A stretch of DNA of 49,149 bases, from assembly GCA_020446525.1 (NCBI GenBank), contig JAGREO010000146.1:1-49149 (forward strand), given 5' to 3'. This DNA comes from Geminicoccaceae bacterium. Its GTDB lineage: Bacteria > Pseudomonadota > Alphaproteobacteria > Geminicoccales > Geminicoccaceae. Below, piece after piece: positions 4,230 through 46,809 of the stretch. Position 1 is the stretch's first letter; the number at the start of each line of letters is the position of its first letter. The notes under the pieces were generated by a model, which worked only from the letters and a program-made list of their open reading frames with translations, ran no database searches and was not told the origin of the DNA. Made by a program: the position numbers and the translations under genes.

Positions 4230-5206
4230 GCCAGCCACGCCCGGATCCGGGCGACCACCGCCCGAAGCGAGATGCCGTAGCGGTCGTGCAGGGTCGGCAG
4301 GGCGCCGGCGTCGAGAAAGGCATCCGGCAGAGCGATCTGACGAAAGACCGGCGTCACCCCGGCGCGCAGCAGCACGGCGGCGACCGCCTCGCCGAAGCCG
4401 CCGGTGATGCCGTGATTTTCCGCGGTGACCACGAGACGGCCGCCTGCCGAGCAGGCCTCGACGATGGCCGCGGTATCGAGCGGCTTCACCGTCGGCACGT
4501 GGAGCACGGCGGCGCCGATCCGATCGGCCGCGAGCCGGTCGGCGGCATCGAGCGCGCGCATGGTCATGAAACCGGTCGAGACGATCAGCACGTCGGCGCC
4601 CTGGCGCAGCATCTTCGCCTTGCCGAGCTCGAAGCGGTAGTCGTCGCCCAGCACCCGCGGCACCTGTCCGCGCAGAAGGCGCATATAGACCGGACCCGGA
4701 TGATCGGCGATCGCGCGTGTCGCCTGGCCGATCTCGACCGCGTCGCAGGGATCGACGATGGTCAGACCCGGCACCGCGCGGAAGATCGCCAGATCGTCGG
4801 TCGCCTGATGGCTCGGACCGTATCCGCTGGTGAGGCCCGGCAGAGCGCAGACGATCTTCACGTCGAGTTTCTCCTCGGCGATCGCCAGACAGACGAAGTC
4901 GTAGGCACGCCGCGCCGCGAACACCGCATAGGTCGTGGCGAACGGCTGAAAGCCCTCGCGCGCCAGCCCCGCCGCCGCGGCGAGCAGTGCCTGCTCGGCC
5001 ATGCCCATCTGGTAGAAGCGATCGGGATGGGCCCGGGCGAAGACGTCGAGATCGGTGTATTTGGCCAGATCGGCGCTCAGGCCGACGATTGCCGGACGCT
5101 CGCAGGCGAGATCGGCGAGTGCGTGGCCGAAGGGTGCGGCGATGGTCGGCCGGCCCTCGGCATCGAGCGAGGCGATCATCGCCGAAGTGGTGCGGCGCGC
5201 GCTCAC
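4226..5206 (-). CDS. Transketolase, C-terminal subunit
   Basis: 326 residues starting at GTG 5206, which overlaps the N-subunit stop (GTGA). It carries the pyrimidine-binding and C-terminal domains of a two-subunit transketolase. MGMAEQALLAAAAGLA holds the TPP-activating glutamate, followed by FATTYAVFAARRAYD and the GYGPSHQATDDLAIFR loop. The C-terminal domain contains the ENHGITGGFGEAV element. With the N subunit it should form a TPP-dependent two-carbon transferase of alpha2beta2 type. Split transketolases occur in dedicated sugar pathways (for example apulose-phosphate or sulfosugar transketolases), so a role outside the housekeeping pentose phosphate pathway is likely. Confidence 0.92.
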   Translation of the reverse strand: MSARRTTSAMIASLDAEGRPTIAAPFGHALADLACERPAIVGLSADLAKYTDLDVFARAHPDRFYQMGMAEQALLAAAAGLAREGFQPFATTYAVFAARRAYDFVCLAIAEEKLDVKIVCALPGLTSGYGPSHQATDDLAIFRAVPGLTIVDPCDAVEIGQATRAIADHPGPVYMRLLRGQVPRVLGDDYRFELGKAKMLRQGADVLIVSTGFMTMRALDAADRLAADRIGAAVLHVPTVKPLDTAAIVEACSAGGRLVVTAENHGITGGFGEAVAAVLLRAGVTPVFRQIALPDAFLDAGALPTLHDRYGISLRAVVARIRAWLA

Positions 5207-6051
5207 GACGGCATCGCCGCATCGAGCAAATCGAGCGCCTGTCCCCATTCGTCCGGCTCCACGCGAATGAAATGGGTCCGCTCGCGCGCTTCAAGAAAGG
5301 GTACGCCCTTGCACATCCGGGTGTCGCAGACGATGACCCTGGGCCGCGGCTCCGTAACCGCGCGCGCCTCGTCGAATGCATCGACCAGAGCGTCCAGATC
5401 GTTGCCGTCGACCCGTTGCACGTGCCAGCCGAAAGCCGCCCATTTGGCGTCGACGGGCTCGGCAGAGAGAGTAGCCGTCGACGGACCGTCCGCCTGCTGG
5501 TCGTTGAAGTCGACGAGGGCGATCAGATTGTCCAGACGGTGGTGCGCGGCCGCCATCGCCGCTTCCCATGTCGAACCCTCGCCCAGCTCGCCGTCCGACA
5601 TGAGGTTATAGACCAGCGACGGCGAGTTCTTGCGCTTGAGACCCAGACCCATGCCGACGGCGATGCCGAGGCCGTGGCCGAGCGAACCGCCGCTGATTTC
5701 CATGCCGGGCGTGCAGGAGGCCATGCCGGACATCGGCAACCGGCTGTCGTCGACGCCGTAGGTTGCGATCTCCTCCTCGGCCAGCACGCCGGCCTCGATC
5801 AGCGCGGCGTAGAGCGCGATGGCGTAATGCCCGATCGACAGCAGGAAGCGGTCACGTTCCTCCCAGTCCGGTTCGGTCGGCCGATAGCGCAGCGCGTGAA
5901 ACCAAGTGACGGCCAGCAGGTCGGCGACACCGAGTGCCTGGCCGATATAGCCCTGCCCCTGCACCTGTCCCATGCGCAGGGCGTGCCGCCTGATCCGCCA
6001 GGCGCGCAACGGCAGACCGACGTTCGAGCCCGCGTGCGGTGTCCCGCTCAC
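5203..6051 (-). CDS. Transketolase, N-terminal (TPP-binding) subunit
   Basis: 282 residues from GTG 6051, overlapping the agmatine deiminase stop by four bases. It is the thiamine-diphosphate domain of a split transketolase. Visible are the active-site histidine region SIGHYAIALYAAL, GGSLGHGLGIAVGMGLG, and the TPP/Mg motif SDGELGEGSTWEA ending at VDFN. A full-length transketolase is about 660 residues; this gene and its partner together give about 608, normal for split forms. An in-frame ATG exists upstream (6081) inside the preceding gene, but the family N-terminus and the NTGA overlap pattern favour the GTG. Confidence 0.92.
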   Translation of the reverse strand: MSGTPHAGSNVGLPLRAWRIRRHALRMGQVQGQGYIGQALGVADLLAVTWFHALRYRPTEPDWEERDRFLLSIGHYAIALYAALIEAGVLAEEEIATYGVDDSRLPMSGMASCTPGMEISGGSLGHGLGIAVGMGLGLKRKNSPSLVYNLMSDGELGEGSTWEAAMAAAHHRLDNLIALVDFNDQQADGPSTATLSAEPVDAKWAAFGWHVQRVDGNDLDALVDAFDEARAVTEPRPRVIVCDTRMCKGVPFLEARERTHFIRVEPDEWGQALDLLDAAMPS

Positions 6052-7079
6052 GGCACCGCCGGCTGCTGCTGGGTGATGCAATGAATACCGCCGCCGCCCT
6101 GCAGGATGACGTCGGCGTCGATCTGGATCACCTGCCGGTCGGGGAAGGCGGCCTGCACCAGCTTTTGTGCCGTCACGTCGGCCGAATCGTCGAAAGCCGG
6201 CATGATGACGGCGTCGTTGGCGACGTAGAAATTGACGTAGCTGCGGGTAGCGCGTCGTCCGTCCTCGCGCCGGGCCATGGCGGGCGACGGCAGTGCGATC
6301 ACCTCGAGCTTGCGGCCTGCGGCGCCCTCGGCCTGCCGCAGGGCGGCCAGATTGGCCTCGAGGCCGGCCCGGTCGTCGGCCGCGGCTCCGGCCGGATCGA
6401 GGGCGAGCACCTTACCCGGTGCGGCGAAGCAGGCGAGATTGTCGACATGGCCCGCGGTCTCGTCGTCGATCAGCCCGTGCTCCAGCCAGATCGTGCGGGA
6501 GACGCCCAGGGTCCGCTGAAGCTCGGCTTCGACGTCGGTCTTCTCCAGGCTCGGATTGCGTCCAGGATCGAGGATCGAGGCGGTGCAGACGAGCGCGGTG
6601 CCCTCGCCGTCGACATGGATGGCGCCGCCCTCGGTGCAGAGCGTGGACGCGATGATCTCTGCGCCGACATGCTCGGCCACCCGCCGCGCCATGCGGGCGT
6701 CGCGCGCATGGTCGGGATGGGCGCCGCCCCAGCCGTTGAACCGCCAGTCCACCGCGGCGAGCTTGCCCTCCCGGGTGATCACGAAGGTGGGCGCGGTGTC
6801 GCGGGTCCAACTGTCGTCGTGGTCGAGCGGCAGGATCGACATGCCCTGACCGAGCGTGAGCGAGGCATCGGCGGTGAGATCGGAGCGCGCGATCATGGTG
6901 ACCGGCTCAAAGGCGGCGATCGCGCGTGCCACCTCGGCATAAGCCTGACGCGCGGCCTGCAGATGCGGCCCCCAGAGACTCTCGCGGCAGGGCCAGGCCA
7001 TCCAGCAGCGCGTATGTGGCGCCCACTCGGCCGGCATGAGCGGGCCCGTCCTCGCGGCCCCGTCGTCGACGTCGCCCAA
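6048..7079 (-). CDS. aguA: Agmatine deiminase family protein
   Basis: 343 residues. The start is TTG at 7079 because GGAGGT lies six bases upstream; the ATG at 7037 (MPAEWAPH) is the alternative. The fold is the guanidine-modifying pentein family. Conserved landmarks are MPAEWAPH, DHDDSWTRDTAP (WTRD at 91-94), HVDNLACF, and the nucleophile Cys334 in GGGIHCITQQ at the C-terminus. Agmatine deiminase converts agmatine to N-carbamoylputrescine and ammonia in the cytoplasm. No N-carbamoylputrescine amidase (aguB) lies nearby, and the co-operonic genes are transketolase subunits and an SDR, which is unusual. A related guanidino compound could be the real substrate. Confidence 0.9.
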   Translation of the reverse strand: MGDVDDGAARTGPLMPAEWAPHTRCWMAWPCRESLWGPHLQAARQAYAEVARAIAAFEPVTMIARSDLTADASLTLGQGMSILPLDHDDSWTRDTAPTFVITREGKLAAVDWRFNGWGGAHPDHARDARMARRVAEHVGAEIIASTLCTEGGAIHVDGEGTALVCTASILDPGRNPSLEKTDVEAELQRTLGVSRTIWLEHGLIDDETAGHVDNLACFAAPGKVLALDPAGAAADDRAGLEANLAALRQAEGAAGRKLEVIALPSPAMARREDGRRATRSYVNFYVANDAVIMPAFDDSADVTAQKLVQAAFPDRQVIQIDADVILQGGGGIHCITQQQPAVP

Positions 7080-7222
7080 ACCCGCACCTCCCGCTTTGCC
7101 GCCTCACCTGCCTTCACAGTCTGCGCGAATTGCCGGCGGTGTACAACAATTCTGCCGTGGGCTTCACCTCGTTCGGGTCGGGCTCTATGTAGGCATCTCG
7201 ACGAAGACCAGGAGGAAGCCCG

Positions 7223-7693
7223 ATGACGAGTGCCGTGGAACGACGCCTGGAGAATGCCGGCATGACGCTGCCCGAAGCCGCGGCCGCTGCCGGCAACTAC
7301 GTGCCCTTCACCAAGAGCGGCACGACCCTCTACGTGTCCGGTCAGGTTCCCTTCGAGGCCGGCCGCATCGCGGTCTCCGGCCGGCTCGGCGACGGCGTCT
7401 CACTCGAGGACGGGCAGGAGGCGGCACGCATCTGCGCCTTGAACATCCTGGCCCAGGCCAGGGCCGCGCTCGACGGCGACCTCGATCGGGTCGTGCGGTG
7501 CCTCAAGCTCGGCGGCTTCGTCGCGGCGACGGCCGAATTCACCGATCATCCCAAGGTGATCAACGGCGCTTCGGACCTGATGGTCACCGCCTTCGAGGAC
7601 GCCGGTCGCCACGCTCGCTTCGCGGTCGGCGTGGCCTCCCTGCCGCTCGGCGCCGCGGTCGAGGTCGACGCCATCTTCGAGATCCGGTCCTGA
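7223..7693 (+). CDS. RidA family protein (YjgF/YER057c/UK114)
   Basis: 156 residues from ATG 7223 with a strong AGGAGG nine bases upstream. A small trimeric cytoplasmic protein; characterised RidA members hydrolyse reactive enamine/imine intermediates from PLP enzymes. The family pattern is visible in GTTLYVSGQVPF, the CALNILAQARAAL helix and the C-terminal LPLGAAVEVDAIFEI. The usual catalytic arginine of the RidA core (in a C-R-V-type strand) is not obvious: the position reads ASLPLGA, so this may be a non-canonical subgroup. It is divergent from agmatine deiminase and coupled to the FemAB-like gene by a four-base overlap. Confidence 0.9.
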   Translation: MTSAVERRLENAGMTLPEAAAAAGNYVPFTKSGTTLYVSGQVPFEAGRIAVSGRLGDGVSLEDGQEAARICALNILAQARAALDGDLDRVVRCLKLGGFVAATAEFTDHPKVINGASDLMVTAFEDAGRHARFAVGVASLPLGAAVEVDAIFEIRS

Positions 7694-8835
7694 GCCTTTT
7701 CGAGGCTCCGTCGATCGATCTGGCCGAAGGAATAGCGGCGATCGACGCCGCCGCATGGGATGCCCTGCGACCGACGGCCAATCCCTTCGTTTCGCACGCG
7801 TTCCTCGACATCCTCGAGCGCAGCGGTTCGGCTTCCGTGGAAACCGGCTGGCAACCGGTCCATCTCTTGTTGCGCGGTGAGGGCCGGTTGCTCGGTGCAG
7901 CACCGCTCTACGTCAAGAGCCATTCCTATGGTGAGTATGTCTTCGACTGGGGCTGGGCGGACGCCTATGAGCGGGCCGGCGGGCGCTACTATCCGAAGCT
8001 GCAGTGTGCGGTGCCCTTCTCGCCGGTGCCGGGTCCGCGCCTGTTGAGCCGCGATCATGCCGCCGAGGTCGCGCGCGGCCTCGTCGCGGCCGCCGAGCAG
8101 ATGCCCGTCTCGTCGCTGCACGTGACCTTCTGCAGTGATCGGGAGGCGGCACTTCTCGCCGAAGCCGGATGCCTGCGCCGTCGGGGGATCCAGTATCACT
8201 GGCACAATCGCGGTTATGCCAACTTCGAGGATTTCCTCGGCACGCTGAAGAGTGCCAAGCGCAAGATGATCCGCCGGGAGCGCCGCGAGGTCGAGGCCGC
8301 CGGCCTGCGGTTCGATACCCTGACCGGCGCCGAACTGACCCCGGAGGTCATGGACGCGTTCTATCCCTTCTATCGCGCCACGGTCGACCGCAAATGGGGC
8401 AGTGCCTATCTCGGTCGCGCATTCTTCCGCATGCTGGGACGCGACATGGCGGACACCGTCGTGCTGGTGACCGTGCATCGGGGTGCCGAGATGGTCGCGG
8501 CAGCCCTCAATCTGCGGGACGAGACGACGCTCTATGGCCGTGTCTGGGGTTGTCTCGACGACTACAGGTTCCTGCATTTCGAGACCTGCTATTATCGTGC
8601 GATCGACTTCGCCATCCGCCACGGTATCTCCAGGGTCGAAGCCGGAGCTCAGGGACCGCACAAGCTCCAGCGGGGCTACGAGCCCGTCCTCACCCACAGC
8701 GCCCACTGGATCCGCGACAAGGCGCTTCGCGATCCCGTTCGGCGCTTCGTCGAATCGGAGTGGCGGCAGTTGCAGGCGCAGATGACCGAATTGCGCGAGC
8801 ACCTGCCCTATCGCGAGGCCGGCATATCCGACTGA
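7690..8835 (+). CDS. FemAB-like GNAT family protein (DUF482, peptidoglycan-biosynthesis-related)
   Basis: 381 residues if read from CTG 7690, which overlaps the RidA stop (CTGA). Family similarity starts within the first residues (IAAIDAAAWDAL, NPFVSHAFLDILERSGS, ETGWQPVHLLL). The first ATG/GTG/TTG after 7690 in this frame is GTG 7837, which would remove these blocks, so a non-standard start is likely. Other landmarks are GAAPLYVKSHSYGEYVFDW, AYERAGGRYYPKLQ, FYRATVDRKWG and EAGAQGPHKLQRGYEP. The family is a tandem-GNAT fold related to FemX-type aminoacyltransferases, and the precise acceptor is unknown. Pairing with RidA recurs in related bacteria as far as I recall. Confidence 0.87.
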   Translation: MSLFEAPSIDLAEGIAAIDAAAWDALRPTANPFVSHAFLDILERSGSASVETGWQPVHLLLRGEGRLLGAAPLYVKSHSYGEYVFDWGWADAYERAGGRYYPKLQCAVPFSPVPGPRLLSRDHAAEVARGLVAAAEQMPVSSLHVTFCSDREAALLAEAGCLRRRGIQYHWHNRGYANFEDFLGTLKSAKRKMIRRERREVEAAGLRFDTLTGAELTPEVMDAFYPFYRATVDRKWGSAYLGRAFFRMLGRDMADTVVLVTVHRGAEMVAAALNLRDETTLYGRVWGCLDDYRFLHFETCYYRAIDFAIRHGISRVEAGAQGPHKLQRGYEPVLTHSAHWIRDKALRDPVRRFVESEWRQLQAQMTELREHLPYREAGISD

Positions 8836-9452
8836 GTTTCGCCGCCGGCGGCGGCGCGTAATGCCGGATCCTCGAGCAAGCGGCGACAAATCTCCTCGTT
8901 CGCCGCTTCGAATGACCGAATCGCGCTTTCGATGCTCGTGTCGGCCGCTGGAATTTCGACATGAAGACGCCGATTGAGGATCGGTCGGCCACGGGTGAGG
9001 TCGACCAGGGTCGCGATCAGATCGACGGTGACGAAGGCATCTGCCTCGCCCACCACCTGCTCGAATTGCAGGAGCCGACCGTCCAGCGAAAATTGGGCCG
9101 TCACGCCGCGCTCGCCGTCGAGCACGAGCGCGAAGGGACCGCGATCGCGCAGACACCGCAGCAACGCACCGCGCACCATGTCCGCCGGCGCCTCCTCGAA
9201 GAAGTCGTGCGCATGCCGCTCGATCCTGCGCCCGTCTCGGCCTTGGCGAAACAGGATGGCGCGCTCGCTCTGCAGCAGGCCGCGCGCCGGGAAAGGCTGG
9301 ACCTCCACCGGCCCGAGCGGTACTGGGACTTCAATGCTCGAAGGCGGCGGCTCGTGCAGACGGTAGAAGCGATCCGGCTCGATCGGCGACCCGCAACCGG
9401 CCAGCACGGTGGCTGCGGCCAGAAGTGCCATGCCGAACCGACTATTCGCCAC
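8808..9452 (-). CDS. ABC-type transport auxiliary lipoprotein (PqiC/DUF330-like)
   Basis: 214 residues from GTG 9452, overlapping the end of the MCE gene by 11 bases. The N-terminus is a lipoprotein signal with lipobox VLAG|C at residues 17-20, so the mature protein is lipid-anchored, probably to the outer membrane. Body features of the ABC_trans_aux family are FYRLHEPP, PFPARGLLQSERAILFR and the acidic-rich C-terminal helix. Such lipoproteins partner with MCE proteins in lipid transport (Mla/Pqi/Let type). The last 28 bases overlap the convergent FemAB-like gene. Confidence 0.87.
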   Translation of the reverse strand: MANSRFGMALLAAATVLAGCGSPIEPDRFYRLHEPPPSSIEVPVPLGPVEVQPFPARGLLQSERAILFRQGRDGRRIERHAHDFFEEAPADMVRGALLRCLRDRGPFALVLDGERGVTAQFSLDGRLLQFEQVVGEADAFVTVDLIATLVDLTRGRPILNRRLHVEIPAADTSIESAIRSFEAANEEICRRLLEDPALRAAAGGETQSDMPASR

Positions 9453-10611
9453 CGCGGGTTCCCCACAAGACGCTGCTCGGGTCACGTTCGAGCGTGCGGG
9501 TGAGACGATTGAGACTGGCCGCGCTCTCGTTGATCGAGCGCAAAGCCGGAGGCACCTCGACGGCGAGCGTGGCAATCACACGGTCGAGGCTCTGCAGCGA
9601 CCGTTCGATCAGCGCGATGTTGGGCGGCGCGGTTACCGGCTGCAGATCGGCGACGCGCGCGCGCAACTCGTCGAGCAAGCGTCCGGTGCCGGCGATCGTC
9701 CGTTCGACCTCCGCGAGCGTCTCGACGAGCGCGGGCAAATCGATGGCATCCATGCCCTCCTCGAACGCCTCCATACCGGCCACGCCCTTGTCGACGAAGC
9801 GGCGGGCGCCGCTGCTCAGGACGCTCGACGTCTCGTCGATCCGCCGCGCGACGTCGGCGACTGTCCGATCGAGGGCGGCGATCAGGCCCGCGGCGGCCCG
9901 GAGGATGCCGTAGGCGCTCTCCGGATCGGTGCCTGCCGTGTCGCCGACGAAAGCGGCCCATCGTTCGGCGGCGACCCGCAGGCTCTCCGCACCGCCGAGC
10001 AGCTCGCCTTCGAGTTCGTCCAGGAGACGCTCGAGCCGTCGCTCCAGAGCCGCCACCGCATCGGCCGCGTCCGGTAGGGCCTCCTTCGACGCGACAGCGA
10101 AATCCTCCACGGACGTCAGCAGGATAGCGACACGCGAGAGGACCGTCGGCGCGCGCGGATCGTCGGCCACGCGGATCTCGCCGCCCGGGGCGAGTACGTG
10201 ATCGTCGGATCCGCCAGGTCCGCCGGCCGTCTCGAAGAGGCCGAGACGCGCCTCCACCATCGGCAGCGGCTGAATGACCTGAAGGCGCGTCCGATCGCGG
10301 ATCAGGTTCAGGGCCGGATCGAGATCGATCGACACGCGAAAACGTATCCCGGCCAATCCCAGCGCCGGCATTTCGGCGTCTATGGCGACGATACGGCCGA
10401 CCGTGTACCCGGCCACCTGCACCGGCGTGTCGACCCTCAAGCCGTCGACGTCGTCGAAATAGGCATGGTAGGATCGGGTGTCCTGCGCAGAAGCGCCACC
10501 GGCGACCGAAGCGAGGAACAGGACCATGGATGCGAAAAGGTGCCACCGCACCGTGCGCTCGCCGATTTCCTTCGACTCCTCCGACCTCGAATTGCCGTTC
10601 GACCGGACCAT
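9442..10611 (-). CDS. MCE (MlaD/PqiB-like) family protein
   Basis: Up to 389 residues. An N-terminal hydrophobic segment (HLFASMVLFLASVAGGASA) is followed by one MCE domain (about residues 45-125) with the DVDGLRVDTPVQVAGYTVGRI motif. The rest is an alanine/leucine-rich, probably coiled-coil helical region, as in proteins that form needle-like hexamers across the periplasm. GTG 10551 (VRWHLF) is a plausible later start; neither start has a clear ribosome site. The segment ends in ASAQ and could be cut like a signal peptide, whereas MlaD normally keeps it as an anchor. The permease (MlaE) and ATPase (MlaF) genes usually found beside it are absent from the window. Confidence 0.87.
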   Translation of the reverse strand: MVRSNGNSRSEESKEIGERTVRWHLFASMVLFLASVAGGASAQDTRSYHAYFDDVDGLRVDTPVQVAGYTVGRIVAIDAEMPALGLAGIRFRVSIDLDPALNLIRDRTRLQVIQPLPMVEARLGLFETAGGPGGSDDHVLAPGGEIRVADDPRAPTVLSRVAILLTSVEDFAVASKEALPDAADAVAALERRLERLLDELEGELLGGAESLRVAAERWAAFVGDTAGTDPESAYGILRAAAGLIAALDRTVADVARRIDETSSVLSSGARRFVDKGVAGMEAFEEGMDAIDLPALVETLAEVERTIAGTGRLLDELRARVADLQPVTAPPNIALIERSLQSLDRVIATLAVEVPPALRSINESAASLNRLTRTLERDPSSVLWGTRGGE

Positions 10612-10685
10612 AAGCGACCGGGTGCCGGACCGGCGAGCCTTTTCGCCGGATGCCTTCGAGCCGGATCGGGCTTAGCCTGCTTCGT

Positions 10686-11924
10686 TCAGCCGATGACACC
10701 CTCTTCGCGCAGACGAGCCAATTCCGGCTCGTCGAGCTGCAGCAGTTCGTGCAGCACCTCGTCGGTGTGCTGGCCGAGCGTGGGCGGCGGTCGTCCGTAA
10801 GCGGGCGGTGTCGCGGTCATCCTGATCGGGTTGGCGAGCAGCGGCACGGTTCCGTCCTCGCCGCGCGCCTGCCTGCCGGCCTGGTGATGCGGCAATTCGA
10901 TCTTCATGCCGCGAGCTTCGACCTGCTCGTCCTCGAACACCTGGGCGATGTCGTTGACCGGGCCGCAGGGCACGCCGAGTGCCGACAACCCGTCGACCCA
11001 TTCGGCCGTGGTCTTGGTCCTGAACGGCGGGATCATCGCCGCGTAGAGTTCCGTTCGGTTCCGCACTCTCAGCGGGTTGCTGGCGAAACGCGGGTCCACG
11101 GCCAGAGCCTCGACACCGGCGAAACGGCACCAGCGGCGGAACTGGGCGTCGTTGCCGGCCGCCAGCACCACCTGACCATCGGCCGTGTCGAAGCGCTTGT
11201 AGGGGACGATGTTGGGATGCTCGTTGCCCAGGCGTTGGGGCACGATGCCTGAGAGCAGGTAGTTGACGCCTTCGTTCGCCAGCCAGGCTACCTGGGTGTC
11301 GAGCAGCGAGAGGTCGATCTCCTGGCCCTCGCCGGTGCGCTCGCGATGACGCAGTGCCGCCAGCACGGCGACGGTCGCATACATGCCGCACATGATGTCG
11401 GCGATGCCGACCCCGACCTTCAGGGGCTCGCCACCGGGCAGACCGGTGATGCTCATGAGCCCGCCATAGCCCTGGGCGAGATAGTCGTAGCCCGCCCGCG
11501 ACGCATAGGGCCCCGTCTTGCCGAAGCCGGAGATCGAGCAATAGACGAGGCCGGGAAACGGCTCCTTCAGGCTCTCATAGTCGAGACCGTATTTCTTGAG
11601 CCCGCCCGCCTTGAAGTTCTGCACGAGCAGGTCCGAGCGGGCGATCAGCGCCCGCGCCAGCTCTTGCCCCTCCGGCCGGGCGATATCGATGGCCACCGAG
11701 CGCTTGGAGCGGTTGGAGGCGAGGTAGTAGGCGCTCTCGTTGGTCTCGCCGCCGGCCTCGTCGCGAAGATAGGGTGGCCCCCATTTGCGGGTATCGTCGC
11801 CGGCCCCGGGCATCTCGACCTTGATCACGTCGGCGCCCAGATCGCCCAGCAACTGGGTGCAGGTCGGCCCCGCCAGAATTCGGGTGAGGTCGAAGACCCG
11901 CACGCCCTCGAGCGCTCGTTTCAT
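10686..11924 (-). CDS. CaiB/BaiF-type CoA-transferase (family III)
   Basis: 412 residues from ATG 11924, with AGAAGAG upstream. Cytoplasmic class III CoA-transferase that moves CoA between carboxylic acids through an aspartyl-CoA anhydride. Landmarks are LEGVRVFDLTRILAGPTCTQLLGDLGADVIKVE at the N-terminus, NRSKRSVAID, the catalytic Asp147 in AGYDYLAQG, GVGIADIMCGMYA and the GVPCGPVND segment. Length is typical of formyl-CoA, succinyl-CoA:acid or carnitine-type enzymes. No dedicated partner (decarboxylase, acyl-CoA ligase) adjoins it, so the substrate remains open. It is divergent from the toxin-antitoxin pair. Confidence 0.93.
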   Translation of the reverse strand: MKRALEGVRVFDLTRILAGPTCTQLLGDLGADVIKVEMPGAGDDTRKWGPPYLRDEAGGETNESAYYLASNRSKRSVAIDIARPEGQELARALIARSDLLVQNFKAGGLKKYGLDYESLKEPFPGLVYCSISGFGKTGPYASRAGYDYLAQGYGGLMSITGLPGGEPLKVGVGIADIMCGMYATVAVLAALRHRERTGEGQEIDLSLLDTQVAWLANEGVNYLLSGIVPQRLGNEHPNIVPYKRFDTADGQVVLAAGNDAQFRRWCRFAGVEALAVDPRFASNPLRVRNRTELYAAMIPPFRTKTTAEWVDGLSALGVPCGPVNDIAQVFEDEQVEARGMKIELPHHQAGRQARGEDGTVPLLANPIRMTATPPAYGRPPPTLGQHTDEVLHELLQLDEPELARLREEGVIG

Positions 11925-12013
11925 ACTCTTCTCACGGCGATTCCGCTCCCTCCCGATCGGTCCCTCGCACCGAGAAACCTTGCATAGCCGGTGGGTGCCC
12001 GGGAGGACAAGAC

Positions 12014-12031
12014 GGTCGGATCGGACCGACC
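12014..12031. promoter_or_regulatory. Inverted repeat in the CaiB / toxin-antitoxin intergenic region
   Basis: GGTCGG-ATCGGA-CCGACC, a perfect six-base inverted repeat with a six-base loop, lies between the divergent CaiB (-) and antitoxin (+) genes. It could be an operator, but the arms are short for a GC-rich genome and no T run follows. Confidence 0.3.
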
Positions 12032-12091
12032 ATGGCCCGTTCGCCCCTCGCTCCGCCGTGCAATCGGATGCCTCAGCGCGATTCGAGAGAT

Positions 12092-12120
12092 TTGATTGTT
12101 GCGTTCATTTCGAATATAGG
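12092..12120 (+). promoter_or_regulatory. Candidate sigma70-type promoter of the toxin-antitoxin pair
   Basis: TTGATT (12092-12097), 17 bases, TATAGG (12115-12120), in a locally AT-rich patch 38 bases before the GTG of the antitoxin gene. The following AAGGAAGGG near 12141-12149 serves as ribosome-binding site. Confidence 0.42.
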
Positions 12121-12157
12121 GTAGGATCCACCAACCAAATAAGGAAGGGAATCACTC

Positions 12158-12616
12158 GTGACCGTGCCGGCTTTCGCCAAAGAGATCGGCCACCGCCTGC
12201 CATCCATCGACGAGCGAGCATCGGCCAATCATCTTCGTCAAATCCTGGCCGCGCAGACGGCGGGTGAGACCAGATTGCGTGTGCTCGACGAGACGAGCAG
12301 GCGACCGACCGAAATAACCCTCACCCCCGGTGTTTCGTCACTGCTGATGGAGTTGCTGCGTCACATCGGACGCGGTGACGCGGTGACGCTCGTGCCGATC
12401 GGGCAGATGCTGACGACGCAGCAGGCGGCCGACATTCTCAACGTGTCGCGTCCCTTTTTGATCTCCCTGCTCGACAAGGGTGCCATCCCCCATGATCTCG
12501 TCGGCCGACACCGGCGGATCAAGGCGGAGGATCTGTTCGAATACAAGCGGCAACGTGATGCGCGACGAAGCGAGGCGCTCGCCGAGTTGGCGGCGCACGA
12601 TGCCGAGCTCTTGTGA
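12158..12616 (+). CDS. Helix-turn-helix (excisionase-type) antitoxin-like protein
   Basis: 152 residues from GTG 12158. The N-terminal half is unassigned. Residues about 84-130 form a MerR/excisionase-type winged helix: MLTTQQAADILNVSRPFLISLLDKGAIP, then VGRHRRIKAEDLFEYK. The C-terminus is charged and helical. It stands three bases before a PIN-domain gene, and this HTH plus PIN order is a known type II toxin-antitoxin layout in which the HTH protein binds its own operator and neutralises the toxin. No phage or integrase gene is near, so a true excisionase role is unlikely. Confidence 0.85.
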   Translation: MTVPAFAKEIGHRLPSIDERASANHLRQILAAQTAGETRLRVLDETSRRPTEITLTPGVSSLLMELLRHIGRGDAVTLVPIGQMLTTQQAADILNVSRPFLISLLDKGAIPHDLVGRHRRIKAEDLFEYKRQRDARRSEALAELAAHDAELL

Positions 12617-40584: not shown

Positions 40585-41782
40585 CGACCCGCCTCGGCAC
40601 CACGTGATGCTCGTCGAGCCATGGAGCAGCGAGCGAGGCGATCGATTCGAGCCCCGTGAACATACGGTCGAGCGCCGAAGGATTCGGCTTGGGCCAATGC
40701 GGCAGGTCGCGGAGAGCCTCGGCCATGCGCGCGGCGTCACGAACACCGTCGTCGGCGATGCACCGCACGAGACCGAGGCCCGACGCCCGCTCGGCGCGCA
40801 GTGCCTGCTCGAGGCGTGGCACCGTGCGCGGCATGATGAGGCTCGGTTTGCCGAATGACAGGATCTCGCAGAAGGTGTTGTAACCGCCCATCGCGACGAC
40901 CCCCGCCGCGCGCTCGAACAGCGTCTCGACCTGCGCCTCGAAGGTGGTCGCGCGGACTTTCTCCAACCGGTTCACCCGCGCCTGAAAACGCATGCGATCG
41001 TCGAGATTCATGAACGGGCCGAAGAGGATGAGTGCCGGATAGGGGATGCCCGGATCGTGCTCGTAGGCACGCAGCACCCAGTCGATCAGGTCTTCGCCGT
41101 CCCCGCCGCCACCCGTCGTCACCAGGACGAACGGCTCGGGCGGCAGCGCGTAGCCGGTCGGAACGTGGCCGTGCTCGGGCACGGCCCGCCGGATGTAGCC
41201 GGTAAATGCGAGCTTGTCGGCGAAACGCCGCATGCCGGGCACCTCGCGGAGCGGATCGAAGATCTCCGGCAGACCGTACACCCAGATGTCGTCGTAAAGG
41301 TCCTGCAGGGCGGGAAAGACGCCCTTGCGCTCCCATTCGTCGACCAGCATGCGCGGATCGTCCATCACGTCGCGCAGGCCCAGCACGCAGCGGGTGCCCC
41401 GACGACGCAGGATCGAGAGCGTCCGCTCGACCTCGCCGCGCAGGCCGAGCGGCTCCTTGTCGACGAGAAACAGGTGCGGATCGAAAATCTCGGCGGTGTG
41501 GCGGATGATCGACGCGCGCATCGCCAGGGTCCGCTCGATATCGATGTGCAGCTTGAGCGAGGTGTACTCGCCATTGCGCAGTTTGATGACGCCCGGCACG
41601 CGGACGAAATCCACACGCGCCTTGAAGTCGAAGCTGCCGATGATCGGCGAACCCGACAGGATCAGGACCGAAAGACCCTTGAACCGGTCGACGAGGTCGT
41701 GGGCGATCGCCCGGCAGCGACGCAGATGGCCCAGGCCGAAACTGTCGTGGCTGTAGATGAGAAGCCGGCGTCCCTCGAACAT
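40571..41782 (-). CDS. Glycosyltransferase, MurG-like; first gene of the eight-gene operon
   Basis: 403 residues from ATG 41782, with GGGAG just upstream. GT-B fold: SHDSFGLGHLRRCRAIAHDL (glycine-rich loop with G-L-G-H), LVDKEPLGLRGEVERTL, VLVTTGGGGDGEDL, FERAAGVVAMGGYNTFCEILSFGKPSLIMPRTVPRLEQALRAER. The MGGYNT..E loop is the UDP-sugar site and parallels the GT at 36475. This COG4671-type family is often annotated as predicted glycosyltransferase. Seven overlapping genes follow in the same direction, so one transcript is expected. A 12-base palindrome GTGCGCGCGCAC (41800-41811) sits just upstream and might be an operator. Confidence 0.88.
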   Translation of the reverse strand: MFEGRRLLIYSHDSFGLGHLRRCRAIAHDLVDRFKGLSVLILSGSPIIGSFDFKARVDFVRVPGVIKLRNGEYTSLKLHIDIERTLAMRASIIRHTAEIFDPHLFLVDKEPLGLRGEVERTLSILRRRGTRCVLGLRDVMDDPRMLVDEWERKGVFPALQDLYDDIWVYGLPEIFDPLREVPGMRRFADKLAFTGYIRRAVPEHGHVPTGYALPPEPFVLVTTGGGGDGEDLIDWVLRAYEHDPGIPYPALILFGPFMNLDDRMRFQARVNRLEKVRATTFEAQVETLFERAAGVVAMGGYNTFCEILSFGKPSLIMPRTVPRLEQALRAERASGLGLVRCIADDGVRDAARMAEALRDLPHWPKPNPSALDRMFTGLESIASLAAPWLDEHHVVPRRVGAAG

Positions 41783-41880
41783 GCTCCCGCCTGCGCGTTG
41801 TGCGCGCGCACTATGGCAGATGCACCGATCACGACGAAGGGCGGATTTGTCGGCGCCGACGGCGTGCAAACCGATATTCC

Positions 41881-41909
41881 TTGACGAAATAGGTTTATTA
41901 TCTCATAAT
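41881..41909 (+). promoter_or_regulatory. Near-consensus sigma70 promoter of the spike-like cassette
   Basis: TTGACG (41881-41886), exactly 17 bases, CATAAT (41904-41909), inside a sharply AT-rich patch of an otherwise GC-rich region. Five of six -35 and five of six -10 bases match consensus. Transcription would begin near 41916, 28 bases before the ATG at 41944. Confidence 0.7.
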
Positions 41910-41943
41910 GCGTCGGCCTTTCCTCCTTTTGCCGGAGTATATC

Positions 41944-42270
41944 ATGAGTTTGCTCTTACCCGTGGACGATAACGGCCACCCGATCCAGTGCCTGGGTTTC
42001 GACTATCGTGGAACCCAGTCGATCTCCGTCAGCGCCGTCAGCGGCCGCAACCCGCAACCGATCGCCAGCGACATCGAACTGGTGACGATCATCGCGACCG
42101 GAGCCTGCCGCTTCGAGGTCGGTGACGCGCAGGTGACCGCCGATCCGGCCACCAGCCCCTTCCTCTATCCCGGCGTCTATGTCGACGTACCGCTGGGCCG
42201 CGGCGAAACCCACATCGCCTTCGTCACCGATGGCGAGGCGTGCGTCGCCCATGTGATCGGAAGAATCTGA
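41944..42270 (+). CDS. Small hypothetical protein of the spike-like cassette
   Basis: 108 residues from ATG 41944, with GGAG at 41936-41939; the in-frame ATG at 41908 lies inside the promoter and is rejected. No signal peptide or membrane helix is visible. It is all-beta in appearance, with alternating hydrophobic strands (LGFDYRGTQSISVSAV, VTIIATGACRFEVG, HIAFVTDGEACVAHVIG). I do not recognise the family. Its position before a polyproline protein and a tail-spike-like protein resembles small structural genes of phage tail modules. It may cap or chaperone the downstream spike. Confidence 0.75.
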   Translation: MSLLLPVDDNGHPIQCLGFDYRGTQSISVSAVSGRNPQPIASDIELVTIIATGACRFEVGDAQVTADPATSPFLYPGVYVDVPLGRGETHIAFVTDGEACVAHVIGRI

Positions 42271-42271
42271 G

Positions 42272-42481
42272 GTGTCGTTCAGGCTCGGCATGACGTCGAG
42301 GTCGCTGCGCCTGCTGGACGCGACGTCGACGCCCATACCCATCGCCCCGCCGCCTCCGCCACCCCCTCCGCCGCCTCCACCTCCGCCCCCGCCGCCGGGC
42401 GCACCGGTGCTGCTGGTTACGGAGAACGGTGAGCGGATCGTGACGGAGAACGACGACCCCATCGAACTGGAGTCCGCCTGA
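42272..42481 (+). CDS. Small polyproline protein (17 consecutive prolines)
   Basis: 69 residues from GTG 42272, one base after the previous stop. Residues 1-25 are basic/hydrophobic and 26-42 are seventeen prolines. The tail is a two-fold repeat, LLVTENGERIV then TENDDPIELESA, similar in style to short acidic repeats seen in phage tail-module proteins. Such a proline run would need elongation factor P to translate. The codons vary (CCG, CCT, CCA, CCC), so the run is unlikely to be a simple sequence-slippage artefact. Its stop overlaps the spike-like gene's ATG (TGATG). Possible function: rigid linker or anchoring partner. Confidence 0.72.
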   Translation: MSFRLGMTSRSLRLLDATSTPIPIAPPPPPPPPPPPPPPPPPGAPVLLVTENGERIVTENDDPIELESA

Positions 42482-44817
42482 TGGCGAACAAGCAGATCCA
42501 CGAACTTGCTCCCGCAGCGACCCTGACGCCCGACGACCGCATCGTAGTCTCGACGGCTTCGGGCAATCTCTCGCGCAACACCACACTCGGGGCCCTGCCC
42601 TTCAAGGACGCCGACGGCGCGGCCGTCGTTCGTCCGATCGCCGACAAGCTCGCCGAGCAGGCGTCGGTACGTGATTTCGGTGCCGTCGGCGACGGCTCGG
42701 CCGACGACGCACCGGCGTTTCGCGCCGCACTCGCGGCTCGTGCGTCGATCTTCGTGCCGCCCGGCACCTACAGGCTGGCCGGCATCGTCGACGTGCTCCC
42801 CACCCGCCGCATCCTCGGCGCCGGCCGTGACGTCACCACCATCGTCGCCGAGGGCGATCGGGCCTTCGTCTTCCAGCGCAACGAAGGTGCCTTCGTGGTC
42901 GATCCGGGCAGCGCGTCGGACTGGAACCGCTCGTCGATCGCGGGCCTGACCATCCGCATGACCCGGGGCGGCATCAAAGCCTTCGGTCACGAGTTCCGCG
43001 CCACCGACATCGGCTTTTTCGGCGGCGCCGCCACCGGGCCCGCCGACGAGCACGGCTGGTGCCTCGATCTGGTCGATGCCAACGAGTGCCATCTGTCGGG
43101 GATCAACGCCGGCTATGGCGGCGGCACCCGCCATCGGATGAACGCCAACGGCATTCGCTGGCGGGCGCAGACGGCGGGCGTGAACTATGGAGACAGCCTG
43201 GTTCAGGAGGTCTCCATCAAGCTCGCCTCGGCGGACACCATCGGCGTGCTGCTGGACGGCCACACCGCGACCGGCAGCACCAATCTCTGCAACAACATGG
43301 TGCTGCAGCGGCTGCAGGTGAACGCGCCGCTCAACGGCAGCGGTCTCGTGCCGCTGCCCAACACGATCGGCGTCAAGCTCTGGAACGCCGCCCGGATCTC
43401 CCTCATCGACTGCAACATCGAGGTTGTCGACGTCGCCTTCGAGGAATATTCCCAGAGCGGCGGTGGTGCTGCCGGTGCCTGTGTCGGCAATGCCTACCTC
43501 AACTGCGCGGTGCACAACTGCAACACCCATTACCGCGACAGCAACGCCGCCACGCCCCGATCGGTGATCCAGCGCACCTTTCTGGGCGGCGACAATCTGG
43601 GACCGATCACCACCGGCAATGCCGGCGACGCCTCGGCACGGGCACAGGATGGCGACAGCTTTCTGCAAGGCGCCTGGATCGCCGGCATCGACGGCAGGCC
43701 GGCGGTTCAGCTGCGTGCCCGCGACAAGGACGTCCTCCTGCTGACCGGTGACAACAAGGGTGCGGGTCAGCCGCTGGCCGACGGTCACCCGGCGCAGATC
43801 GCCCCCTATCACGGCTTCGTCTTCGATCTCCGCTCGACGGAAAGTGCCAAGCTGACCCGGCCGGTGGCCACGGGAGCGGCCAATCCCGACGGTGTCGGTC
43901 CGGCCCTGGCCGACGTGCGGCTCGAACTCGGCAACGGCGAGGGCGACGTGCGCGGCGAGCTCGCCCGAGTGCAGGTCAACGATCCGTTGCATCTGCCGGG
44001 CCGGACGACGGAGCCCAAGCGTCCGATCGACGGCCTCGTGCATCATGCCGCCACGGCCGGAGCCCTGCCGCCCACGGGCGAATGGTATCTGGGTCCGGGG
44101 CTCTACGCCCAGGTCAATGGCGGCGAGCATCCGCCCGTCGCGGTGCAGCGCGGGGCGGTGCCGGAGAAGGAGCGCAACGCCGACTTCACGGTGTCACCGG
44201 CCGATTTCGGCAAGATCCTGCGTGTCGCCAATGCGAGCGACCGTCTGGTGACCATCCCGGCGGGCCTGGTGCAGCCAGGGTCCGGTGCCAGGCGGTTCTG
44301 GGTCATCCGTCAAGGCACCGGCCGCGTCACCTTCGCCGGCACGGGTGGTCTGCCGATCCGCTCGACCGGCGGCGAGCTCTCGATCGCCGAGCAATACCAG
44401 ATGGTCGAGGTGGTGCTGACCGCCAGCGAAGCCTACCTGATCCACATCCTGCCCGACGCCCTCGAGCGCTACGAACGGCCGTTGCACTGGACCGGCGGCA
44501 ATTTCGCCTTGCCGGCAAGCTACCTGGGCAAGCTGGTCCGCGTCAGCCACGGTGACACGAGTGCCCCGCGCTACCTGGAGATTCCGACCGGCATCGTGCC
44601 GCTCGGTATGGATGCGGTGAGCTTCTGGGTGATGAAGGCGGGTCCGGCCGACGTCGAAATCCGCGTCGGCGCCGGCATGACGCTGGCCTCGCCGTCCGGC
44701 ACGCCCTATCGGATCACCCAGGCGAACAAGGTGGTCGAGATCGTCGTCACCAACTCCGTCGGGCGCAACCCGGCACTGGCCGGCAAGCAGCCCGACACGG
44801 TCTACGTCATCGACTGA
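42481..44817 (+). CDS. Phage-tail-spike-like pectate lyase superfamily (beta-helix) protein
   Basis: 778 residues from ATG 42481. The N-terminus MANKQIHELAPAATLTPDDRIVV resembles the short virion-attachment motif of tail fibres. VRDFGAVGDGSADDAPAFRAALAA at about 63-86 is the Pectate_lyase_3/GH28-like opening, followed by a right-handed beta-helix (about 85-400). The C-terminus has two similar modules (about 566-655 and 672-775) starting DFTVSPADFGKILRV and NFALPASYLGKLVRV and sharing FWVI/FWVM and EVV/EIV strands. There is no signal peptide. Such proteins bind or cleave polysaccharides. No phage structural genes flank it: it lies between glycosyltransferase genes and an O-antigen ligase. The last 16 bases overlap the convergent ligase gene. 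Confidence 0.85.
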   Translation: MANKQIHELAPAATLTPDDRIVVSTASGNLSRNTTLGALPFKDADGAAVVRPIADKLAEQASVRDFGAVGDGSADDAPAFRAALAARASIFVPPGTYRLAGIVDVLPTRRILGAGRDVTTIVAEGDRAFVFQRNEGAFVVDPGSASDWNRSSIAGLTIRMTRGGIKAFGHEFRATDIGFFGGAATGPADEHGWCLDLVDANECHLSGINAGYGGGTRHRMNANGIRWRAQTAGVNYGDSLVQEVSIKLASADTIGVLLDGHTATGSTNLCNNMVLQRLQVNAPLNGSGLVPLPNTIGVKLWNAARISLIDCNIEVVDVAFEEYSQSGGGAAGACVGNAYLNCAVHNCNTHYRDSNAATPRSVIQRTFLGGDNLGPITTGNAGDASARAQDGDSFLQGAWIAGIDGRPAVQLRARDKDVLLLTGDNKGAGQPLADGHPAQIAPYHGFVFDLRSTESAKLTRPVATGAANPDGVGPALADVRLELGNGEGDVRGELARVQVNDPLHLPGRTTEPKRPIDGLVHHAATAGALPPTGEWYLGPGLYAQVNGGEHPPVAVQRGAVPEKERNADFTVSPADFGKILRVANASDRLVTIPAGLVQPGSGARRFWVIRQGTGRVTFAGTGGLPIRSTGGELSIAEQYQMVEVVLTASEAYLIHILPDALERYERPLHWTGGNFALPASYLGKLVRVSHGDTSAPRYLEIPTGIVPLGMDAVSFWVMKAGPADVEIRVGAGMTLASPSGTPYRITQANKVVEIVVTNSVGRNPALAGKQPDTVYVID

Positions 44818-46070
44818 CCCGGATGGGCGCGGTGGAGCGACGTCTCGTGTCGCTCCACCGCCTCGTCTCGGGGCTCCGTCACGACGGCGAGAATCATCAG
44901 CAGCACGGTCGCGTGATAGACCGTGTTGAAATAGTTCTGCAGCACGCTCTGGGTCACCATGTCGGCGGCGAGCACCAGCATCAACGCGCGCCGGGCCGGT
45001 ACGGCTTCAATCGCCGCGGCGCGCAGCGTGCGCGCGAGCATCCCGCCGATCAGCAGCGTCACCATCAGCAGTCCGGGCAGCCCCGCCTCGAAATAGAACC
45101 GCACGAATTCGTTGTGCGGCCATTCCAGCATCCGCCCGCCTTCGATCCACGGTCGACCTTCGGTCATCATCGACCGGACCGCGCCGATGCCGTGGCCGAA
45201 CGGCCGATCGGCCGCCAGCGCCAGCCAGTGCACCAGGCTGTGCGAGCGGCCGGAGGTGAAATCCGAGGTGCCGTCACCGACCAGTCTCAGCAGGAAAGCG
45301 TCGCTCACGGCGACCGTGTGGACGGCGAACACCACCAGACCCGCGAGCGTCACGAACACGAGCGTGCGCAACTGGCGGCTGCGTTCGGGACCCGCCGCGA
45401 CCGACAGGAGGCCCATCAGCACCAGTGTCAGCAAGGCGGTCCGCGTCGCCGAGAGCAGCACCATGAGCAGGGCCAGGAGCGCCACCAGAAGGGCCGTGAA
45501 GCGTGCGAACCCGCGCCGCTCCACGGCTCCGTTGCAGGCCAGAACGAGGGCGATCGTGCAGAGACTGGCGTGGGTGATGACCGATCCGGTCAGGTCCAGC
45601 CGCATCAGCGCGTCGTGGCCGCGAAGCACCACATTGTCGGCACCGGCGGCGACGGTCACCGCCATGGCCAGCACGTAGAGTCCGAGCACCTTGGCGACGA
45701 GGCCCGCGAGATCGACGTCTTCGAGCGCGTGGGCGAGATGGGGCGCCATCAGCAGGGCGACGATCGGCAGGAGAATCTTGTAGTCCAGGAGATCGAACGT
45801 GCCGCCTGCGTCCAAAAGCGCGATCGTCGTCAGCAGCCACAGGAGCACCACCGGCAGTTCGTGACCGCGGCGGGCGAAGATCGGGCGATACAGGACACAC
45901 GCGCCGGCGAGAAGCGCCACGATCGCCGAGAACAGCGCGACGCGCGCCTGCTGCAGGCCGAGCAGTGCCGCCGCCGAGGAGGACAGGAAGAGAAAGCTCG
46001 TGGCGGCCAGAAAAAGCAGCCGGATCGTGTGCACCATTCGGCCCGTTCGCTCTTGGCGGACCCTCAGCAT
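44802..46070 (-). CDS. O-antigen ligase family protein (WaaL/Wzy-like)
   Basis: 422 residues from ATG 46070; ATG 46034 (MVHTIRLLFLAA) is nearer the first helix and equally plausible. There are about eleven membrane helices, with the conserved Wzy_C loop: SGRSHSLVHWLALAADRPFGHGIG, then EWPHNEFVRFYFEAGLPGLL, in which the R and H residues of the ligase family appear. The R-T-A-L-L-T-L-V segment precedes it. It joins or polymerises lipid-linked glycan on the periplasmic face. No Wzx flippase is in the window. The cytoplasmic tail is charged. The likely substrate is made by the neighbouring glycosyltransferases. Confidence 0.88.
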   Translation of the reverse strand: MLRVRQERTGRMVHTIRLLFLAATSFLFLSSSAAALLGLQQARVALFSAIVALLAGACVLYRPIFARRGHELPVVLLWLLTTIALLDAGGTFDLLDYKILLPIVALLMAPHLAHALEDVDLAGLVAKVLGLYVLAMAVTVAAGADNVVLRGHDALMRLDLTGSVITHASLCTIALVLACNGAVERRGFARFTALLVALLALLMVLLSATRTALLTLVLMGLLSVAAGPERSRQLRTLVFVTLAGLVVFAVHTVAVSDAFLLRLVGDGTSDFTSGRSHSLVHWLALAADRPFGHGIGAVRSMMTEGRPWIEGGRMLEWPHNEFVRFYFEAGLPGLLMVTLLIGGMLARTLRAAAIEAVPARRALMLVLAADMVTQSVLQNYFNTVYHATVLLMILAVVTEPRDEAVERHETSLHRAHPGQSMT

Positions 46071-46098
46071 AAGAGCTGCTTGACGAGTAAATCAACCT

Positions 46099-46809
46099 AT
46101 GATTGATATATTCATCCGGCCAGCCTCGATGGGTTCCATGCTGACGAAAACGAGACCGTTCCCCATGATCGGGCGCGACAGCGCTTTCTTCGGCGTCTCG
46201 CAAACTTGCGCGTTCGTGCTGGCGGCCAATTTCGTCATGCAGGGCATGCGCGGGATGGACAATGGCGAGCTGTGCTTTCGCATCCTGCTCGAAGGTGCCG
46301 TCGCGAGCCTCGTGCTGGCGCTGCTGCCGGCCGCCTGGCCGCCGTCGGCGACGCTGCCGCTGGCGCTCGTGACGGCTCATCTGTTCAACTTTACGCTCAA
46401 CGGCCAGGTGTTCGTCTGCGTCCGCTATTGCCGTTTCTTCCGCCGCTCGCCCGACGTTCTCGACGAGTGGCTGCAAAAGCGCGTCCTCCGTCTCAAAGCC
46501 TCCGGCTGGCTCGACGAGGCCTTGTGTCTGGGCTCGAAGGGCACGGGCGAGAGAGCGCGATCGGCCCGTTCCGACATCGACCTGCGCTTGATCACGCCCG
46601 TCGGCATCGCCGGATGGCTGCGCACCAATCTCCTGCTCCTGTCGTTACGCAGCGAAGCCTTCTTTCGGGCGATCCCGCTCGATCTCTACGCCTATGATCG
46701 CATCGAAAGCCTCAAGCGGTTCGACGGTGCGGAGCCGTTGCTGATCGTCCTCGACCGCAAGGGGCGCCTGGCGCGAACCTTCGCGCACCGGCCCCTGACC
46801 CGCGCCTGA
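46099..46809 (+). CDS. Membrane protein with nucleotidyltransferase-like domain
   Basis: Up to 236 residues. ATG 46099 gives the longest frame, but ATG 46138 (MLTKTRPFPMIG) is possible because AT-rich promoter-like sequence (TTGACG at 46080-46085) covers the first codons. The N-terminal third holds two to three membrane helices (FGVSQTCAFVLAANFVMQG, ILLEGAVASLVLALLP, LALVTAHLFNFTLNG). The C-terminal part has GSKGTGERARSARSDIDLRLI, the G-S...S-D-I-D pattern of NTP_transf_2 enzymes, and PLDLYAYD may supply the third carboxylate. It is coupled (TGATG) to the Alg14-like gene. It may activate or modify the glycan precursor; the substrate is unknown. Confidence 0.7.
   Translation: MIDIFIRPASMGSMLTKTRPFPMIGRDSAFFGVSQTCAFVLAANFVMQGMRGMDNGELCFRILLEGAVASLVLALLPAAWPPSATLPLALVTAHLFNFTLNGQVFVCVRYCRFFRRSPDVLDEWLQKRVLRLKASGWLDEALCLGSKGTGERARSARSDIDLRLITPVGIAGWLRTNLLLLSLRSEAFFRAIPLDLYAYDRIESLKRFDGAEPLLIVLDRKGRLARTFAHRPLTRA

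Follow-up and report, generated by a model that had tools for sequence, protein, structure and literature searches.

A three-gene tailspike cassette beside a glycan locus in Geminicoccaceae as the likely receptor-binding locus of a domesticated podovirus-like particle

We analyzed a 49,149-nt stretch of DNA from a Geminicoccaceae bacterium (contig JAGREO010000146.1, assembly GCA_020446525.1; hereafter the window), which is one entire contig of a 3.77-Mb metagenome-assembled genome (MAG) that is 87% complete. At 41944–44817 on the forward strand it carries three genes, here called the trio. The first, prot1 (41944..42270), encodes an all-beta protein of 108 aa, a putative virion or adaptor protein. 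The second, prot2 (42272..42481), starts with GTG and encodes a 69-aa polyproline protein with a conserved N-terminus and a conserved VTEtGepiVTE tail, possibly a linker or adaptor. The third, prot3 (42481..44817), encodes a tailspike-like beta-helix protein of 778 aa. prot1 and prot2 are separated by 1 bp, and the stop codon TGA of prot2 overlaps the ATG of prot3, which is the spacing of a translationally coupled operon. Upstream lies a sigma-70-like promoter (41881..41909, forward strand) with the −35 element TTGACG (41881–41886), a 17-bp spacer, and the −10 element CATAAT (41904–41909), which matches the consensus at 10 of 12 positions and is the sole promoter-like site in 41700–45100 (0.4 expected). 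A predicted operator, AATAGGTTTATTATCTCATA (41888..41907, forward strand), is located between the −35 and −10 elements; it is a palindrome of the form AGGwwnnnwTCCT, of the RogA type (GGAA-N4-TTCC). The neighbors of the trio in the window are glycosyltransferase genes and a gene for a Wzy_C O-antigen ligase. The original prediction, made from the letters of this DNA, had described tightly packed genes for a small beta protein, a polyproline protein, and a beta-helix protein, placed behind a near-consensus promoter and between a glycosyltransferase operon and an O-antigen ligase gene, and every part of this description was confirmed. An antisense open reading frame of 724 aa across the trio (41956–44130, reverse strand) is a product of high G+C content and is unsupported as a gene.

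Pfam, PHROGs, and NCBIfam contain no family for prot1 or prot2. The AlphaFold model of prot1 (predicted local distance difference test [pLDDT] score of 86) has six strands and is all beta, and a Foldseek search with it gave just weak matches to beta-sandwich and cupin structures, none of them informative. In all full trios examined, prot2 follows the same plan, that is, a conserved start, a short N-terminal 'LGL..GLRL' segment, a variable proline-rich middle, and a conserved 'LLVTETGEPLVTELGE' tail. Pfam recognized prot3 alone of the three proteins (PF12708, E 4.6e-10). The high-confidence part of its model, residues 62–375 (42664..43605), is a right-handed beta-helix predicted to bind or cleave glycans; residues 376–506 are poorly modeled, and residues 560–654 and 667–777 (44158..44811) form two C-terminal beta domains that look like a tandem pair by eye (pLDDT about 80–90). 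With its right-handed beta-helix and PF12708-type cap, prot3 has the build of a pectate-lyase-type tailspike. Foldseek matched the beta-helix to the epimerase AlgE4, the biofilm lyase RbmB, and the tailspikes of CBA120, Sf6, and HK620 (E 1e-8 to 1e-4), and further matches were phage pectate-lyase tail proteins. In PHROGs, the N-terminus resembled tail-spike and pre-neck proteins weakly and the C-terminus resembled phage structural modules, the first C-terminal domain matching phrog_21510, phrog_21978, and one phage virion structural protein family. A tblastn search of phage genomes found no match to prot1 and short pieces only of prot3. The distal half of prot3 (residues 560–778) is replaced or missing in Geminicoccus and genome G007 (loci L135–L137), where the first 410 residues are kept; because it is exchanged or lost in this way, we regard the C-terminus as modular.

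Homologues of prot1 (50–71% identity) were found in 22 of the 31 Geminicoccaceae genomes and homologues of prot3, full-length or N-terminal, in 21, with one copy each. Wherever both occur, prot1 lies directly upstream of prot3, and the trios are collinear; Arboricoccus pini has retained prot1 alone. A pattern scan for prot1 in 84,980 species genomes returned 22 loci. The named ones belong to Geminicoccaceae (Geminicoccus, Arboricoccus, and Geminicoccaceae MAGs), and the remaining ones to unclassified alphaproteobacterial or other bins, with one distant match (28%). Within genus pairs, the ratio of nonsynonymous to synonymous substitution rates (dN/dS) was 0.08–0.20 for prot1, 0.11–0.21 for prot3, and looser for prot2 (0.44–0.54). 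The trio adjoins a glycosyltransferase operon in seven genera (g1, g2, g7, g12, g13, g14, and g15) and is located elsewhere in genus g6 and in genome G018. Placement at a glycan locus, a point raised by the original prediction, is common but not universal. In genus g6, the trio adjoins genes for a T7-type portal (PF12236), scaffold (PF05396), and capsid (PF19821), and it lies immediately behind a gene for a regulator with a helix-turn-helix (HTH) and an S24-type domain, on the same strand.

Genes of this kind are also present in the genome of the window. Another of its contigs (C56, locus L100) carries a T7-like head-tail cluster of 12 genes and roughly 10 kb (2663–12428), with genes for the T7-type terminase TerL (2663–4210; curated family NF033889, 398 bits), a gp14-like protein (4247–4684), tail tube B (4639–6570), tail tube A (6567–7136), the capsid (7631–8461), the scaffold (8651–9421), the portal (9696–11216), a protein of 131 aa (11253–11648), and a divergent regulator (up to 12428). 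The neighbors of this cluster are OmpA, Hpt, YjeF, and GGDEF-EAL genes. No phage capsid, portal, integrase, or lysis gene had been noticed around the trio, and its contig, which stops at the window edges, indeed contains no capsid, portal, or integrase gene near it; the capsid, portal, and terminase genes are on the other contig. Of the 31 genomes of the family, 27 (21 of the 22 high-quality ones) have one copy of the head cluster, which is collinear in 17 and has neighbors that differ between genera. The portal search was positive in all trio-bearing genomes except G025, which is 82% complete. Pfam analysis of the flanking genes in G000 (the genome of the window), G006, G013, and G018 gave host genes or no family, and no integrase or replication gene was recognized in the head clusters and flanks examined. 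Across prot1, prot3, and the head genes, dN/dS was 0.08–0.27, indicating purifying selection.

A cellular genome that holds structural and packaging genes derived from caudoviricetes (portal, scaffold, capsid, tail tubes, and T7-type TerL), with no gene for autonomous replication or integration recognized, has what is expected of a gene transfer agent (GTA), and the integrase, replication, and lysis modules that would surround these genes in a complete prophage were not found. The system of this family does not fit the RcGTA-like elements (Rhodogtaviriformidae), which are marked by the GTA_TIM megatron and a siphovirus-like cluster: GTA_TIM (PF13547) was absent from 30 of the 31 Geminicoccaceae genomes, and the Caulobacter control was positive. 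The sole positive genome, G022, is a MAG with 8% contamination and has three copies on C364, C20, and C619, which are probably foreign contigs.

The regulatory sequences tie the two loci together. A matrix trained without the genome of the window ranked 41888–41907 first in the whole window on both strands (19.9 bits vs 11.1 for the next independent site). When built from trio promoters alone, the matrix found the palindrome AGGAAnnnnTTCCT in the intergenic region between the head regulator and operon and again before the portal gene, and these were the top-scoring sites in nearly all 20-kb head loci tested. When eight genomes were scanned in full, six sites emerged, corresponding to the trio, the head cluster, and a third locus, where the operator precedes a gene for a 152-aa HTH protein. 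This gene is present in 21 genomes of the family, in most of which the operator is convincing. Its product matched small terminase subunits weakly (phrog_16503, E 7e-4), and 'TerS-like' is our guess from this match. This third locus, exemplified by L416 (1578–2036) with orthologues at L421–L444, encodes a fast-evolving HTH protein of 140–150 aa with the operator upstream, possibly the small terminase or an activator. The operator of the trio itself is missing or weak in g6, as expected when the trio lies behind the regulator and shares its promoter. In genome G004 (L102), which has no trio, the head cluster has lost the capsid gene and the next gene (89 aa) and two operator sites remain, so that decay is likely in progress. 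In the window, the intergenic region ahead of the O-antigen ligase gene contains a weak operator-like site of 11.1 bits (46082–46101, reverse strand); the site is weak also in L065 and absent in L062, L069, and L077.

The regulator of the Geminicoccaceae clusters is a protein of 210–240 aa (213 aa in G002) with an HTH_26 domain and an S24-like domain that has lost the catalytic Ser/Lys. RogA, the Caulobacter repressor of the GTA activators gafYZ, consists of 213 aa with an HTH and an S24-like domain lacking the catalytic residues, and it binds the inverted repeat GGAA-N4-TTCC (PMC9632790). The Geminicoccaceae regulator shares this size and build, and a matching inverted repeat (AGGAAnnnnTTCCT) lies at the core promoters of the trio, the head cluster, and the third locus. 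By architecture and operator, the regulator is RogA-like, and we infer that it represses these promoters. Class-wide relatives of the repressor at L350 and L115 have kept the S24 catalytic GDSM/K and may be SOS-cleavable.

Related head clusters occur well beyond the family. The capsid profile gave full strong matches (E < 1e-100) in 58 of 385 genomes sampled evenly across Alphaproteobacteria, some of only 0.9–1.5 Mb. Most of the 40 class-wide clusters that we fetched had the same gene order, and about 15 of 19 class-wide clusters carried the operator in their regulator region. Four genomes of ~0.9 Mb (L373, L377, and L378 in G217, G098, and G387; L370 in G310) have kept all head genes in a rearranged order. 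In at least 11 of the 40 clusters, a spike gene separates tail tube B from TerL; its product starts with a weakly recognized T7 gp17-type N-terminus and has a beta-helix start 33–59% identical to prot3. The Geminicoccaceae clusters have no spike gene at this position.

A cassette like the trio was found inside the head operon of relatives. Searches with a prot1 profile detected relatives between the scaffold and capsid genes of G003, a Geminicoccaceae genome, and of about ten IMG/VR contigs in which the head genes are similar. Each is followed by a short prot2-like protein beginning with 'MTALGL..', which is 48–51 aa long or fused to a domain of ~200 aa and has the pattern 'LGL..L..PPP'. In L284, L287, and L288, the cassette continues with a beta-helix protein of 429–433 aa (PF12708, PF13229), the C-terminus of which carries a VTE.G..RVTESGEE repeat resembling that of prot2. 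Such a cassette within a head operon links prot1, prot2, and the spike to the particle by a line of evidence separate from regulation. Another IMG/VR contig with a prot1 match (L139) was considered as a phage and rejected; it carries a g6-type head cluster together with the trio and reads as a fragment of a Geminicoccaceae chromosome.

These data bear on the idea that the trio serves as a cellular glycan enzyme in its own right, with no relation to particles, such as a secreted lyase or epimerase of the adjoining exopolysaccharide locus. Its position beside glycosyltransferase genes in many genera and the AlgE4 and RbmB folds among its nearest structural matches would fit such a role. No signal peptide was seen in prot3 by eye, however, the location differs in g6 and G018, and the operator is common to the trio and the head genes. 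Together with the adjacency in g6 and the cassette in the head operon of relatives, these observations led us to reject a lone glycan enzyme, to which we give hardly any credence. The suggestion of a spike standing alone in a glycan locus is wrong as well, since the same genome encodes the remaining parts of the particle at another place under the same operator.

We compared the phylogeny of the head proteins with that of rpoB in 35 genomes. The trees had 13 of 32 splits in common, compared with a maximum of 4 in 1000 permutations, and the distances correlated at 0.84, or at 0.64 once the six deepest taxa were removed. Geminicoccaceae were monophyletic in both trees. The trio tree shared 6 of 9 splits with the head tree, a number reached by none of 2000 permutations. 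We conclude that the head cluster largely co-diverges with rpoB, that is, it shows the vertical inheritance by which GTAs are recognized.

This result is relevant to the alternative that widespread temperate or cryptic podovirus prophages were captured repeatedly, leaving the trio as a stray block of tail genes. The head genes are all derived from phages, more than 600 IMG/VR contigs with such capsid and portal genes are catalogued as viral, and the capsid of the Pelagibacter phage Hodr is 50% identical. Yet the clusters are single-copy and co-diverge with rpoB, the flanks examined hold host genes, integrase and replication genes were not recognized, and the isolate-derived IMG/VR contigs inspected, mostly 9–25 kb, repeat the same 12-gene cluster. 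We consider repeated capture very unlikely and reject a prophage remnant for a trio that belongs to a single-copy, family-wide, co-diverging system without an integrase. The original prediction had named two findings that would point to such a remnant, namely that homologues are confined to complete prophages or that a phage cluster lies immediately beyond the window; the trio proved to be family-wide and mostly unlinked to the head cluster, with no integrase. Of its two readings, the domesticated spike is supported by the retention of the trio across the family, its purifying selection, and its unlinked position in most genera. A relic of a tail module is contradicted by a genome that keeps portal, scaffold, capsid, tail tube, terminase, and repressor genes under purifying selection.

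We therefore think it very likely that the trio encodes the receptor-binding part (tail spike) of a T7/podovirus-like particle that has been domesticated and is inherited vertically by Geminicoccaceae, most likely a GTA. The particle would be encoded at several loci: a head-tail operon for the portal, scaffold, capsid, two tail-tube proteins, gp14-like protein, and T7-type TerL with its divergent repressor; the trio; and a third gene for the small, putatively TerS-like HTH protein. The RogA-like repressor would bind the common AGGAAnnnnTTCCT operator and keep all promoters off, and upon its release the head genes and the spike would be produced together. Trimers of prot3 may then sit on the short tail of the assembled particle, aided by prot1 and prot2, and the beta-helix may bind or trim the envelope or matrix polysaccharide on the surface of the target cell so that the particle docks. 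The particle is probably a GTA, for which packaging of host DNA and its transfer are predicted, most likely among kin.

Several points weigh against this interpretation. Both the particle and its packaged DNA are predictions from sequence. No lysis gene was recognized in the head clusters and flanks examined. The co-presence of trio and head cluster was not significant (Fisher test, p = 0.06; 21/1/6/3), the association being weak because this trio is missing from six genomes that have the head cluster. In the genome of the window, a MAG of 87% completeness, we found no third locus. Finally, Pfam found no gp17-like N-terminal attachment domain (PF03906) in prot3, whereas the class-wide spikes have it weakly.

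The same genetic evidence also applies to a domesticated weapon, either a tailocin-like killer or a PBSX-like defective particle, for which the trio would set the target range. Modular C-termini of the spike would fit the targeting of strains, and particles of the PBSX type, as discussed in PMC12946183, package DNA but do not transfer it. However, purifying selection (dN/dS about 0.1) maintains a full capsid, a scaffold, a portal, and a packaging ATPase, none of which a headless killer would need; moreover, the operator is of the kind that a GTA repressor recognizes. Because neither the capsid and scaffold nor the packaging motor has been lost, we favor a GTA and regard a killer or defective particle as unlikely. 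A wider scenario is conceivable, though we would not call it probable: Alphaproteobacteria may ancestrally hold a second, independently domesticated GTA of the T7/podovirus type under its own RogA-like repressor, with Caulobacter RogA as a survivor rewired to the siphovirus-type GTA and the trio as a detached spike locus.

To our knowledge, the known alphaproteobacterial GTAs are siphovirus-like or, in Bartonella, tailed particles based on HK97-type capsid genes. We found no description of a T7/podovirus-like GTA in Alphaproteobacteria in the literature, within a scope that excludes subscription journals and most preprints. If our interpretation is true, gene-transfer-like particles have been domesticated from short-tailed phages too, hundreds of 'viral' contigs in databases are explained as cellular, and the repressor offers a genetic handle on the question of DNA transfer by such particles. 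The trio also illustrates how the component that binds the receptor can separate from the main cluster yet remain controlled by the same switch.

Among known systems, the closest functional analogue of the trio spike is TspA, the RcGTA tailspike of Rhodobacterales, an unlinked but co-regulated beta-helix spike that digests biofilm (PMC13420450). Like prot3, it has a right-handed beta-helix, serves a domesticated particle, is encoded off the main cluster, is co-regulated and conserved alongside it across an order, and is thought to target extracellular polysaccharide. In contrast, RcGTA is siphovirus-like with a baseplate and TspA has an N-terminal domain resembling a carbohydrate-binding module, whereas prot3 is predicted to belong to a T7-like short tail, has a short N-terminus, and is accompanied by prot1 and prot2. 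The tailspikes of Sf6, HK620, and CBA120 share the beta-helix fold and a glycan target with prot3, but they belong to complete phages and their identity to prot3 is low (12–14%). FpGTA of Faecalibacterium (PMC12946183) is likewise predicted to be podovirus-like and encoded at two loci, with tail fiber and receptor-binding genes on the second; its host is Gram-positive, it has lysis genes, and its activity has been shown, whereas the system described here is alphaproteobacterial and class-wide, with a RogA-type operator and no lysis genes found. The closest capsids of true phages are those of the Pelagibacter podoviruses, namely HTVC010P-like phages and EXVC031P (Hodr), at 31–50% identity. These phages are autonomous and lytic with genomes of 34–35 kb, whereas the bacterial clusters comprise ~10 kb with no replication genes recognized and have capsids 55–94% identical among themselves. 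The RcGTA-like GTAs and CcGTA with RogA (PMC9662315, PMC9632790) have in common with the Geminicoccaceae system that they are phage-derived, multi-locus, and vertically inherited in Alphaproteobacteria, with a RogA-type repressor and the GGAA-N4-TTCC repeat. They differ in the GTA_TIM marker, absent from 30 of 31 Geminicoccaceae genomes, in the terminase, which is of T7 type in Geminicoccaceae, and in the point of control: RogA acts on the activators gafYZ, whereas the Geminicoccaceae operator lies on the structural promoters themselves.

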